Of a stretch of DNA of 64,000 nucleotides, positions 8,077 through 11,191 are shown piece after piece. The position numbers and the translations under genes are program-made. This stretch comes from Hyphomonas neptunium ATCC 15444 (GTDB lineage Bacteria; Pseudomonadota; Alphaproteobacteria; Caulobacterales; Hyphomonadaceae), in NCBI RefSeq assembly GCF_000013025.1, contig NC_008358.1, positions 868,001-932,000 on the forward strand. Reading direction: 5' to 3'. The notes beneath the pieces are model-generated. The model did no database searches. It worked only from the letters and a program-made list of their open reading frames with translations, and had not been told where the DNA came from. Position 1 is the first letter of the stretch. Each line of letters begins with the position of its first letter.

Positions 8077-9198
8077 TCAGCCCACCCGCTCCACCACAAC
8101 AGTTCCAGCCGAATAGCCTGCTCCGAACGAGCAGATCAGGCCTTTCTGTCCGGCCGTGAAGTCTTCCGAGTGCAGATGGAAGGCGATGATCGAGCCCGCC
8201 GAAGACGTGTTGGCGTAGGTGTCGAGCACTGTAGGGCTTTCAGCGTCGCTCGCCTCATGGCCCAGCACCTTCGATGAGATCAGCCGGTTCATGTTGGCGT
8301 TGGCCTGATGCAGCCACATGCGTTTCAGAGCGCCCGCCTCGATGCCCAGTTCGCCCAGATGACCATTGATCATCTCTGCCACCATCGGCACCACTTCCTT
8401 GAACACCTTGCGGCCTTCCTGAACGAACAGCTTGTCCGGCGTGCCGATGCCGTCAGGCGCCGCGCGGTTCAGGAAGCCGAAATTGTTGCGGATGTTGTTG
8501 GAAAATTGCGTCTTCAGCCGCGAACCCAGGATCTTCCAGTGCCCGGCCGGGGCAATCGCCTCGTCTTCTACCAGGATGGCGGTGGCCACATCACCAAAGA
8601 TGAAATGGCTGTCGCGGTCGGTGAAGTTGAGATGGCCCGAACAGATTTCGGGGTTCACCACCAGCACCGATCTGGCATTGCCCGAGCGGATAAAGTCCGC
8701 CGCCGTCTGAATGCCGAACGTGGCTGAGGAGCAGGCCACGTTCATATCAAACGCAAATCCCTCGATGCCGAGCGCTTCCTGCACTTCAATCGCCATCGCC
8801 GGATAGGCGCGCTGCATGTTGGACGCCGCGCAGATCACCGCGCCGATGTCCTTCGGGTCGCGCCCGGCCCGCTTGAGCGCGTCGCGCGCGGCATGCACGG
8901 CCATTTCGGCCAGTACGGAAATCTGTTCATTCGGCCGCTCAGGAATGCGCGGGGTCATGATATCGGGGTTCAGCACGCCCTCCTTGTCGATCACATAGCG
9001 CGCCTTGATGCCCGAGGCCTTCTCGATGAACTCGACGGAGGAATGGGTTTTGGGCTCCAGCAGGCCGGAGCTGATGTCGGCGGCGTTCTCGACATTCCAG
9101 TTGTCGGCCCAGGCATTGTAGCTGGCGACCAGTTCAGCGTTGGAAATCGAGTTGGGCGGGGTCCACAGACCAGTGGCGGAAATCACGGGGCTCGGCAT
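8077..9198 (-). CDS. Beta-ketoacyl-ACP synthase III-like (FabH family)
   Basis: Thiolase-fold condensing enzyme of 373 residues. The Cys-His-Asn triad of KAS III enzymes is present: C156 in NVACSSATF, H297 in WLHQANANMN and N330 in DTYANTSSAG. It is longer than housekeeping FabH (about 320 residues), mainly through an N-terminal extension around residues 30-65. It stands alone, away from fatty-acid synthesis genes, so it may prime with an unusual acyl-CoA or act in a specialised pathway. The substrate cannot be read from sequence. The 128 bases upstream should hold its promoter. Confidence 0.88.
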   Translation of the reverse strand: MPSPVISATGLWTPPNSISNAELVASYNAWADNWNVENAADISSGLLEPKTHSSVEFIEKASGIKARYVIDKEGVLNPDIMTPRIPERPNEQISVLAEMAVHAARDALKRAGRDPKDIGAVICAASNMQRAYPAMAIEVQEALGIEGFAFDMNVACSSATFGIQTAADFIRSGNARSVLVVNPEICSGHLNFTDRDSHFIFGDVATAILVEDEAIAPAGHWKILGSRLKTQFSNNIRNNFGFLNRAAPDGIGTPDKLFVQEGRKVFKEVVPMVAEMINGHLGELGIEAGALKRMWLHQANANMNRLISSKVLGHEASDAESPTVLDTYANTSSAGSIIAFHLHSEDFTAGQKGLICSFGAGYSAGTVVVERVG

Positions 9199-9326: not shown

Positions 9327-9602
9327 TTACTTGTCGACCTGGCCCGGCCCGCCATAGACCTTGCGTTGGAGTTCGCGATCCTCGGCCGCGCGGACGCTTT
9401 CTTCCCAGGTCTCGGACTCCTCATCATACTTGGCTTTTTCCGCCGCAATCACGGTTTCGCGGCAAAGCTGGCGCTCTTCCTCGTCCGATTTGTCCTGACA
9501 GGCGGCGAGGGCCTTGGCCTCGGCCTGGTCGCGCCATGTTGCGCAACCGGCGACCGGAAGAAGAAGCGCCATTGCCGCGCAGGCAGATAGCAGCGCCCGC
9601 AT
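9327..9602 (-). CDS. Small lipoprotein with C-x11-C motif (second of pair)
   Basis: 91-residue predicted lipoprotein with signal peptide and lipobox VAGC, then a highly charged, helix-prone body (AEKAKYDEESETWEESVRAAE). It carries two cysteines 12 residues apart, CQDKSDEEERQLC. The upstream small lipoprotein has the same spacing and a D-E-x-[DE]-R-x-x-C core, which suggests diverged duplicates. The ATG at 9602 overlaps the upstream stop by one base (TGATG). No known family; function unknown. Confidence 0.7.
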   Translation of the reverse strand: MRALLSACAAMALLLPVAGCATWRDQAEAKALAACQDKSDEEERQLCRETVIAAEKAKYDEESETWEESVRAAEDRELQRKVYGGPGQVDK

Positions 9603-9805
9603 CACGGACGGCGCTCGCCGTTGCGCTTCGTGCTCAGGGCAACATCCGCGACCACGTTCTGAATGCAGGTCGCCCGGTCGCCCTCATCTTCGATGCTGGC
9701 GCATTCATCCACCGGGTTGGCATACGCGTTCGACGGGGTACCGCTTGCGCAGCCGCCGACAGCCGCCAGCAATCCCATCGCCGTCATAAACATAAGCGTT
9801 TTCAT
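9602..9805 (-). CDS. Small lipoprotein with C-x11-C motif (first of pair)
   Basis: 67-residue predicted lipoprotein: signal peptide from the ATG at 9805, lipobox VGGC, then a short body with two cysteines in CASIEDEGDRATC. The paired cysteines could form a disulfide in the periplasm. The start overlaps the tag stop by four bases (ATGA), and the stop overlaps the next gene, so it sits inside a translationally coupled run. A longer frame starting further upstream lacks a signal peptide at its N-terminus and is not preferred. No family recognised. Confidence 0.7.
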   Translation of the reverse strand: MKTLMFMTAMGLLAAVGGCASGTPSNAYANPVDECASIEDEGDRATCIQNVVADVALSTKRNGERRP

Positions 9806-10383
9806 GGTCTCTCCCGCACACCCTTGTGACGGGGACACCCTACCTCATGATCGTTGACCATGCCAACGGCCTGTGCCCACGCATAGACAATTGTCGGGCC
9901 TACAAATTTGAAGCCGCGCTTCTTGAGGTCCCTGGACATTGCCGCCGACCAGTCCGTGCTGGTGGGCGCCTCGCGGAAATTCTTCCATTTGTTTACAACG
10001 GGTTTGCCGCCGACATAGCCCCAGCAGTAATCCGAGAAATCATCGCCCGCTTCCATCATGGACAGGTAGCTCCGGGCGTTGCCGATCACGGCGTCGATCT
10101 TCTTGGGGCTGCGGATGATGCCGGGATTGGTCAGCGCCTTTTCAGCGCGTCTGGGCGTCCAGCGAGCCAATTTTTCCGGGTCAAACTCGTCAAACTCTTC
10201 CCGAATGCTCTCCCGCTTCCTCAGAATTGTGATCCAGCTCAGCCCTGCCTGCATCCCGTCCAGCTGCAGCTTCTCCCACAGCGCGCGCGGGTCGCGCTCG
10301 GGCACGCCCCATTCTTCATCATGATAGGCGCGGTAAATGGGATCGGTCACCGGCGCCCAGCCGCAGGAATGGGGTTCACTCAT
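9802..10383 (-). CDS. tag: DNA-3-methyladenine glycosylase I
   Basis: Base-excision repair enzyme that removes 3-methyladenine from alkylated DNA. The 193-residue product has the family start CGWAP and DPIYRAYHDEEWG, the QAGLSWITILRKR stretch and a C-terminal NDHEVGCPRH, giving the Cys and His zinc ligands at both ends. The ATG at 10383 places the first zinc Cys at residue 6, as in the family. The start overlaps the end of the upstream ygfZ gene by 8 bases, and the stop overlaps the small-lipoprotein start. Confidence 0.95.
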   Translation of the reverse strand: MSEPHSCGWAPVTDPIYRAYHDEEWGVPERDPRALWEKLQLDGMQAGLSWITILRKRESIREEFDEFDPEKLARWTPRRAEKALTNPGIIRSPKKIDAVIGNARSYLSMMEAGDDFSDYCWGYVGGKPVVNKWKNFREAPTSTDWSAAMSRDLKKRGFKFVGPTIVYAWAQAVGMVNDHEVGCPRHKGVRERP

Positions 10384-11191
10384 CGGCTTTGGCCTCCAGA
10401 TGGGCTTTGACTTCGGCAATCAGCCACGGCGCGCCGTCGATTTCGGCGGGAGCGTCGTTCACGGTGACAGGCTGTTTATCCTGGATCGCCTTGGCAAACC
10501 TGTCGGTCCGGATCAGGGCGAGGGCTTCACCGGCGGCGGCGCTGGTGACGGTGCCGAGACTGCCAGCCGTTCCGGCGCGCAGCTCGGCGCCCACCACAAG
10601 GCCTTCGCCTTTCAGACGCACCGTGCGCTTGCGGATCAGCCCCTTGCGTTTCATCCGGCTGGCGACTTCCTGGCCGACGAAACAGCCCTTCCTGTAGTCG
10701 ATGCCGGTCATCACATCCATGTTGATGTCGGTCGGGAACACCTCGGCGGCGCGATAATCGCGGCCCCATTCGGGAACGCCTGCGCTGATCGCCAGCGCGT
10801 CCCAGCCAGGCAGGGGCTCTGCTGCATCTCCGGCGGGCACAATCGACCGGTGGGGCAGCTTCGGTGTGCGCGGATCGGGCACGCCGCTTACATCAATGGC
10901 CGAAACCAGCGCTTCATCGCGCATGATCTCCACCGCCGAGCGAAGCCGGAACATCTTCAGCCGCTTCATCAGATCGTCTGCGGCATCCTCGTGCACATCA
11001 ATCAGCACGCCGTCTGCGATGCGATGGGCAATATAGTCGGCAATGATCTTGCCTTGGGGGGTCAGCAGCGCGCCATAGCGCGCTTCACCCTCGGCCCATC
11101 CGGCCACCGTATGGGTCACGGTGCGCTCCAGAAGGGCGATTGTGTCGGGGCCGGTGAGGCTGAGAATGGCGCGGTCTGGAAGGCGGTGCAT
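10376..11191 (-). CDS. ygfZ: Folate-binding YgfZ/IbaG-type Fe-S maintenance protein
   Basis: 271-residue GcvT-like protein that helps assemble or repair certain Fe-S enzymes using tetrahydrofolate. The diagnostic motif is seen as DYRKGCFVGQE at about residue 184, with the invariant cysteine. It heads the minus-strand unit ygfZ-tag-lipoprotein-lipoprotein and is divergent from pyrC across a 97-base gap. Confidence 0.92.
   Translation of the reverse strand: MHRLPDRAILSLTGPDTIALLERTVTHTVAGWAEGEARYGALLTPQGKIIADYIAHRIADGVLIDVHEDAADDLMKRLKMFRLRSAVEIMRDEALVSAIDVSGVPDPRTPKLPHRSIVPAGDAAEPLPGWDALAISAGVPEWGRDYRAAEVFPTDINMDVMTGIDYRKGCFVGQEVASRMKRKGLIRKRTVRLKGEGLVVGAELRAGTAGSLGTVTSAAAGEALALIRTDRFAKAIQDKQPVTVNDAPAEIDGAPWLIAEVKAHLEAKADE

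Follow-up and report, generated by a model that had tools for sequence, protein, structure and literature searches.

Two small lipoproteins encoded behind ygfZ and tag in Hyphomonas neptunium: an unnamed family with a conserved cysteine pair and a predicted helical hairpin

The run of genes that starts with ygfZ and tag in Hyphomonas neptunium ends in two very short reading frames, here called P2 and P1, and the question raised by this locus is what such small proteins could be and whether their place behind tag says anything about their role. In the window, the stretch of 64,000 nucleotides that was analyzed, the minus-strand order is ygfZ, tag, P2 and P1, followed after a 128-bp gap by the beta-ketoacyl-ACP synthase III gene (Table 1); the genes nearest to the pair are an HD/YfbR-like gene, the synthase, tag and ygfZ. 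Overlaps occur at every junction from ygfZ to P1, with 8 nt shared by ygfZ and tag if the latter begins at the ATG that we adopted, its longest reading frame opening at TTG 10419. The ATGA and TGATG overlaps pointed out by the first-pass annotation can be read directly in the sequence, as CCATGAAA where tag stops and P2 starts, and as CGTGATGC where P2 stops and P1 starts.

Table 1. Genes, junctions and protein features of the locus, in window positions.
Feature	Position	Strand	Basis
P1, small lipoprotein, 91 aa	9327..9602	minus	ORF and translation, dN/dS
P2, small lipoprotein, 67 aa	9602..9805	minus	ORF and translation, dN/dS
tag, DNA-3-methyladenine glycosylase I, upstream neighbor	9802..10383	minus	PF03352, E 5.4e-72
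ygfZ, CAF17-like protein, first gene of the run	10376..11191	minus	TIGR03317, 75.3 bits against a cut-off of 49
Beta-ketoacyl-ACP synthase III (PRK07515 type), next downstream, same strand	8077..9198	minus	NF005703, E 2.6e-189
ATGA overlap, tag stop / P2 start	9802..9805	minus	sequence
TGATG overlap, P2 stop / P1 start	9600..9604	minus	sequence
P1 motif Cys35-x8-Arg44-x2-Cys47	9462..9500	minus	invariant in the 38-row alignment A3
P2 motif Cys35-x8-Arg44-x2-Cys47	9665..9703	minus	invariant in the 16-row alignment A4
P1 predicted long second helix, residues 41-83	9354..9482	minus	AlphaFold2; 22 of 43 residues charged

A good ribosome-binding sequence for P2 (GGGAGAG) lies within the end of tag. 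Inspection by eye of the sequence upstream of P1 revealed no ribosome-binding sequence, which fits translational coupling; P1 also has an in-frame GTG one codon ahead of its ATG, and the orthologues align to the ATG. Neither the tag/P2 nor the P2/P1 junction shows a promoter-like site. The idea that the two genes have their own promoter was discarded, the lone site (10350-10321) lying inside tag and occurring at chance frequency.

Both P1 and P2 are genuine coding genes under purifying selection. Ten pairs formed from five close orthologues gave a median dN/dS of 0.137 for P1 and 0.209 for P2, against 0.094 for tag and 0.067 for the synthase in the same set, and single further pairs ranged from 0.01 (P2) to 0.51 (P1, pair L008/L009). 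Low ratios and the existence of homologues indicate that the proteins are coding and constrained, but that they change faster than their neighbors.

With E values of 0.01 or lower, the P1 query matched in 43 of the 105 genomes of the family and the P2 query in 19, 17 of them within the genus; P2 is present in 17 of the 42 Hyphomonas genomes. A profile built from 38 P1-type proteins (A3) reached 71 of the 105, including all 42 of the genus, while a smaller profile, A1, matched in 65 of 249 genomes of the order. Beyond this the signal thins out: among 385 genomes drawn from the class, five had a match, two of them genus members. One P1 orthologue (L015 1492-1758, from the MAG G073) has a stop codon ahead of the conserved glycine tail, and its C-terminus may so be shortened, broken or misread.

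Both proteins combine a lipobox with C-x8-R-x2-C, and the original description of two tiny lipoproteins with a common C-x11-C therefore stands. The longer pattern in which it had been phrased, CxxxxDE-x-[DE]-R-x-x-C, is exact in P1 (CQDKSDEEERQLC) and in P2 (CASIEDEGDRATC); across the family, however, the constants are the two cysteines and the arginine, and the DE part is not kept. Taken by itself the bare pattern is weak, since C-x8-R-x2-C has ten further occurrences in the window's six-frame reading frames of 50 codons or more. Likewise, 4 of 1000 shuffles of mature P2 scored as well against mature P1 as P2 itself, and the two sequences by themselves would be no more than suggestive of homology.

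Conservation changes this picture. In A3 five columns are invariant, namely the lipid cysteine, Cys35, Arg44, Cys47 and Gly84, and in A4, a 16-row alignment of P2 orthologues, Cys35, Arg44 and Cys47 are kept in the same way, with YANP and VADV in addition. To avoid circularity, we also translated 58 of the A3-profile matches, one per genome and with no cysteine filter. Among these, 53 have C-x11-C and 52 the full C-x8-R-x2-C, the exceptions being a lysine for the arginine in G026 and C-x10-C in five proteins of genus g7. The genus subset carries the full motif in 41 of 41, and homologues that keep the cysteines, on which the first-pass annotation had staked its claim, do exist in related genomes. 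Comparison of the P1 and P2 profiles by hhalign gave a probability of 97.5 for the whole proteins, and for the mature parts a probability of 93.8 and a score of 35.4, the maximum among 200 column-shuffled controls being 15.9. Conservation in 52 of 58 unfiltered hits and a profile match far above the shuffles place the motif beyond chance. Judged by their profiles, the mature proteins are homologous, and we hold this homology, together with the genes and the motif, with high confidence.

The g7 proteins (loci L209, L210, L238, L239 and L240; genomes G079, G081, G083, G084 and G085) are a variant in their own right: C-x10-C replaces C-x11-C, a second cysteine pair appears in the tail, and no tag gene lies nearby.

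The slot between tag and the next gene was surveyed in 72 loci, tag being found in 66, and in most tag loci a distance of 0-12 nt separates the first slot gene from the point where the Tag alignment stops. In Hyphomonas the slot holds one P1-type gene, or P2 followed by P1, or a dissimilar first gene followed by a P1-type gene (G039, G041, G042 and G064 in the survey, and G040). The second-largest genus, g3, with Henriciella among its named records, has one long-type gene, a long and a short gene, or a short gene alone; long genes paired with genes of 58-63 aa stand there in reversed order in G012, G018, G019, G022 and G025. Named examples are Hyphomonas sp. L-53-1-40, Henriciella mobilis, H. 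algicola and a Hirschia MAG, whose slot protein does not have the arginine. The survey filter missed lipoproteins in G038, G043 and G053, the second gene of G060 and of G073 and the first of G040, all but the last of which came up among the unfiltered translations; it returned no candidate in G077 and no slot protein in the Ponticaulis record L093.

Two out-of-frame overlapping reading frames (L002:1368-1607 and L092:3149-3367) were dropped and identical proteins counted once, leaving 72 tag-slot proteins. The x11 spacing is found in 69 of these and the arginine in 66 of the 69, figures that have to be read with the filter in mind, as it required two cysteines 9-13 residues apart and the presence of cysteines is partly built in. 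The three exceptions in spacing comprise two proteins of L088 (titled Hyphomonas sp. ih12), with x12, and one of L094.

Several slot records deserve separate mention. At P2's position, L074 1770-2078 (G041) and L028 1184-1492 (G040) encode a different lipoprotein of 102-103 aa; both versions terminate in PTEPL, and that of L074 joins a C-x11-C hairpin to a cysteine-rich tail, with six mature cysteines. The nearest named relatives of Tag come from Hyphomonas and other Hyphomonadaceae, save one record titled Acidobacteria. That record, L082 (LNFC01000024.1), and L086 (CAMEDD010000004.1, titled Sulfopaludibacter) contain a Hyphomonas-like ygfZ-tag-P2 locus with Tag proteins 84% and 78% identical to the window's Tag, respectively, and these MAGs look mislabelled or contaminated.

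How, then, did the pair arise? The first-pass annotation saw a duplication inside the ygfZ-tag run. The homology that this implies holds, but the genes lie after tag, and a recent copying event finds support neither in the DNA, in which the longest match between P1 and P2 is 16 nt, nor in the phylogeny. In a tree of 69 proteins, a branch supported at 99/97 has P2 on one side and, on the other, 47 rows, made up of every P1-type protein of Hyphomonas, the long Henriciella-type proteins and eight more. This branch, the shared C-terminal tail and the slot are our grounds for taking P1 as the counterpart of the single-copy Hyphomonas gene. The tree itself is weakly resolved and should be read with care, being built on 71 columns with a midpoint root, 19 of its 65 inner branches open and warnings of long branches, and the single-copy Hyphomonas genes do not come out in it as the immediate sister group of this clade's P1. 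On that account, and because the two genes are adjacent and homologous and P2, found in 17 of the 42 Hyphomonas genomes, is followed by a P1-type gene wherever the contig continues (that of G071 ends just beyond P2, the only one of the two seen there), recent duplication of P1 within the run deserves to be weighed; we nevertheless judge it rather unlikely. Dissimilar pairs occupy the same slot in G041, G064, G039, G042, G019, G018, G012, G022 and G025, which makes gain and loss of deep homologues equally likely. The comparisons do not support P2 as a fresh copy of P1; P2 may, though, have changed fast after a duplication.

The position next to tag invites the idea that the lipoproteins assist Tag and YgfZ in alkylation repair or in Fe-S functions, for instance as envelope stress sensors with a cysteine redox switch. 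Such a role would agree with the cysteine pair itself and with the short distance to tag in most of the Hyphomonadaceae loci surveyed. However, in 66 more distant tag loci (L096-L161, from Maricaulis, Parvibaculum, Brevundimonas and others, some with no ygfZ and a few extending only a short way past tag) the filter turned up no C-x11-C lipoprotein downstream of that gene; a looser filter returned a single C-x11-C reading frame (L151), with an unconvincing signal peptide. Conversely, tag was seen in four of 20 regions around profile hits. These four belong to the family of the host, and all 13 regions that represent other families of the order lack tag. The 13 had been picked for their profile hits, and the filter gives a candidate in ten of them, one having the x10 spacing, with L225-L227 yielding none; two of the contexts at other loci, read by eye, involve isocitrate dehydrogenase in one case and a thiolase plus a reductase in the other. 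Tag linkage is observed in Hyphomonadaceae only, and its absence beside relatives in other families makes it look like local history. The linkage is probably positional and not a mark of function, and we regard a role in the business of Tag and YgfZ as highly improbable. Separately, L081 and L228 (G116) show a tandem pair at another locus, where two tiny lipoproteins, unlike each other but both with C-x11-C, are encoded near one another on one strand and flanked by thiolase-like and reductase-like genes.

The variability of the slot raises another idea, that these are surface-variable lipoproteins excluding phages or conjugation, comparable to entry-exclusion lipoproteins. Copy number and sequence do turn over fast at one slot amid conserved neighbors, and a weak match to the EexN profile appears in three of the 38 members. 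Yet the best of these has an E value of 0.15, which is noise level, the best PHROG match among five proteins scanned has an E value of 0.036, and the close-pair dN/dS values are purifying and not diversifying even at their highest, the L008/L009 pair. We give this exclusion role little credence.

We turn now to the proteins themselves. By eye and by pattern, P1 has a signal peptide at residues 1-19 with the lipobox VAG|C and lipid Cys20, and P2 one at residues 1-18 with VGG|C and lipid Cys19, leaving mature lengths of 72 and 49 residues. In both, the lipobox is preceded by a hydrophobic stretch, and the lipid cysteine is invariant in A3 and A4; lipidation is predicted on this residue. In the Lol rule of E. 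coli, a residue other than aspartate after the lipid cysteine argues for the outer membrane, although the rule may not hold here. Aspartate never follows the lipid cysteine in the 72 tag-slot proteins, from which we infer a likely outer-membrane location.

The number of cysteines points to a bond between the remaining two. Mature tag-slot proteins have an even count in 72 of 72 cases (two in 71 and six in one), and 12 of 12 members hand-picked from other loci have two or four, the extras arriving in twos. By script, 51 of the 58 unfiltered hits have two mature cysteines; for the other seven the script had mistaken a cysteine of the signal peptide for the lipidated residue or not found the lipobox, and by eye these have two (G000, G089) or four (the five of g7). 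Cysteines gained and lost in twos are as expected for a disulfide, which probably links Cys35 to Cys47.

Structure prediction is compatible with such a link. AlphaFold2, run with A3, modeled P1 as two helices, residues 23-35 and 41-83, at a mean pLDDT of 84.2 and with block means of 91-97 for residues 21-80; run with A4, it modeled P2 at moderate confidence (mean pLDDT 70.1) with helices at 31-36 and 41-65, bearing in mind that short charged sequences are often drawn as helices. In the models Cys35 falls where helix 1 ends or right beside that point, and helix 2 has Cys47 in its second turn, positions that make a staple over a loop of 4-5 residues plausible. A short helix, a tight loop and a longer helix stapled by the cysteines is a plausible fold, to which, as to the disulfide, we attach moderate confidence. 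Among solved structures, Foldseek returned no good match to the P1 model (best E 3.1). A sequence search of the solved structures gave one helical match (E 0.75), set aside as chance.

Cysteine-stapled hairpins are known elsewhere. The small Tims (Tim9/Tim10) and CHCH proteins are mitochondrial helical hairpins stapled by cysteines; they resemble the predicted form of P1 and P2 in the hairpin and its staple, but differ in cysteine spacing, and the likeness is one of analogy only. VIA-align of the P1 model with 2bsk gave a Z score of 5.4 over 73 residues, and the scores of 5.4-5.8 for 2bsk_C, 8b6h_FA and 7w5z_T1 are within the chance range for helical hairpins.

The LprI domain (PF07007, DUF1311) was our first guess for a parent family, being like P1 and P2 a small exported helical domain with conserved cysteines. 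It was rejected: P1 and P2 are unmatched and the retrieved relatives mostly lack the motif, C-x11-C occurring, with no arginine, in L164 only among the ten relatives listed. PF07007 is not listed for either protein or among the 25 listed of 27 families for the 38 P1-type proteins, and it has no match in genome G000, as against a match in 12 of the 31 genomes searched. An LprI-domain protein, ScwA of Salmonella, may still be the closest experimental parallel that we have seen, by analogy: its disulfides depend on DsbA, and both its stability and its control of a lytic transglycosylase require them (PMC7933661). The NGK_0946 family (NF046038) gave a weak match in six of the 38 P1-type members (best E 0.012) and 15 bits against Henriciella L090; P1 and P2 are not listed for it, and none of the proteins tested reached its curated cut-off of 45 bits.

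More generally, neither P1 nor P2 reached any Pfam, NCBIfam or PHROGs family, the matches being noise, as they are for the relatives with the exception of L050. The queries that we put to the open PMC library brought up no paper on this lipoprotein family. The view that no described family covers the pair is correct as far as curated families go, but a hairpin with C-x11-C and this arginine is also present in VasI. L050, a 182-aa secreted protein of another Hyphomonas retrieved by the P2 search (E 0.004), matches positions 2-46 of the VasI model PF11319 with its residues 38-80 (E 0.0023; its 18 bits fall short of the cut-off of 26.5). A search of 142 genomes of the class with PF11319 gave three proteins (L180, L181 and L182) that read CLQIEDSFDRQYC, CTNISSNSERLACYD and CKAINDDKRRLTCYD, to be compared with CDDIVDSKDRLDCYE in a Henriciella slot protein. 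C-x2-I-x5-R-x2-C, with the same spacing, is found in these three VasI-model proteins and in two secreted Hyphomonas proteins. The latter, L050 1138-1683 (G061) and L213 2189-2668 (G045), are 159-182 aa long and carry a VasI-like N-terminal CxxI-x5-RxxC[FY]D.

Core-to-core comparison with the VasI-like rows gave an hhalign score of 27.8, above the maxima of three sets of 200 shuffles (13.6 with all columns shuffled, 20.4 with the cysteines kept, 22.7 with cysteines and arginine kept), although the score is partly built in, the five rows having been cut with a pattern that demands the isoleucine and the arginine. The hairpin is probably a module of shared origin, common to P1/P2 and VasI, and not a sign of family membership. 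VasI, EvfG and VCA0118 (PF11319, type VI secretion accessory proteins) are also exported, with an N-terminal C-x11-C hairpin and an arginine three residues before the second cysteine. Their domain, however, spans 184 positions, most of them past the hairpin, whereas P1 and P2 consist of hairpin and tail only; as the VasI domain past the hairpin is absent, the two are not VasI members.

Could P1 and P2 nonetheless be lipid-anchored, stand-alone relatives of the VasI N-terminal hairpin that do the same job, such as docking in the envelope? The identical spacing, the sub-threshold PF11319 match of L050, which P2 had drawn in, and a score above all three shuffle maxima speak in this direction. Against this, the shared stretch is about 30 residues long and its rows were selected by pattern, the C-terminal VasI domain is missing, and PF11319 is listed neither for P1 nor for P2 at E values up to 10 (filters dropping most matches above 0.1) nor among the 25 listed of 27 Pfam families for the 38 P1-type proteins. 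The VasI family was named from type VI clusters, whereas P1 and P2 are lipid-anchored beside tag; no type VI genes flank them, and G000 has no PF11319 match. To our knowledge, the role of VasI in type VI secretion is itself poorly known. We take a shared job with VasI to be a serious candidate, if on balance a doubtful one. A more elaborate version, with a fast-turnover family of outer-membrane lipoproteins, each a VasI-type stapled hairpin with a variable helix, whose recurrent non-identical tandem pairs work together in a hetero-complex and target, for example, a secretion or cell-wall protein of the envelope, is speculative and seems to us quite unlikely.

Taken together, we think it fairly probable that P1 and P2 are outer-membrane, disulfide-locked hairpin lipoproteins of an unnamed family and act as protein-binding adaptors in the envelope. 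Mechanistically, the two would be translated by coupling from the end of the ygfZ-tag transcript, exported by Sec, lipidated at the lipobox cysteine and tethered by the lipid. Helix 1 would end at the first cysteine of the motif, 13-17 residues past the lipid cysteine, and a tight loop of 4-5 residues would lead into helix 2, opening with Arg-x2-Cys. The periplasmic oxidation machinery would then link the two cysteines and lock the hairpin, leaving the remainder of helix 2 as a variable, partner-facing part, long and highly charged in P1 and short with a basic tail in P2. In this way the proteins may serve as small membrane-tethered adaptors, apparently kept as a pair in one Hyphomonas group; our confidence in the adaptor function is low.

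Small lipoproteins and the hairpin module are known kinds, but P1 and P2 match none of the curated families. Annotation often overlooks very small lipoproteins or gives them no name, and the family can be defined by a lipobox, a first cysteine 13-17 residues further on, C-x8-R-x2-C and a predicted helix, a definition that holds across the Hyphomonas genomes searched and reaches other Caulobacterales. Hyphomonas is not known to be harmful, and making deletions and assaying disulfides in it should be straightforward. P1 and P2 point to a stand-alone form of the VasI hairpin, and would give annotators a new small family and provide a minimal model of a disulfide-locked hairpin.
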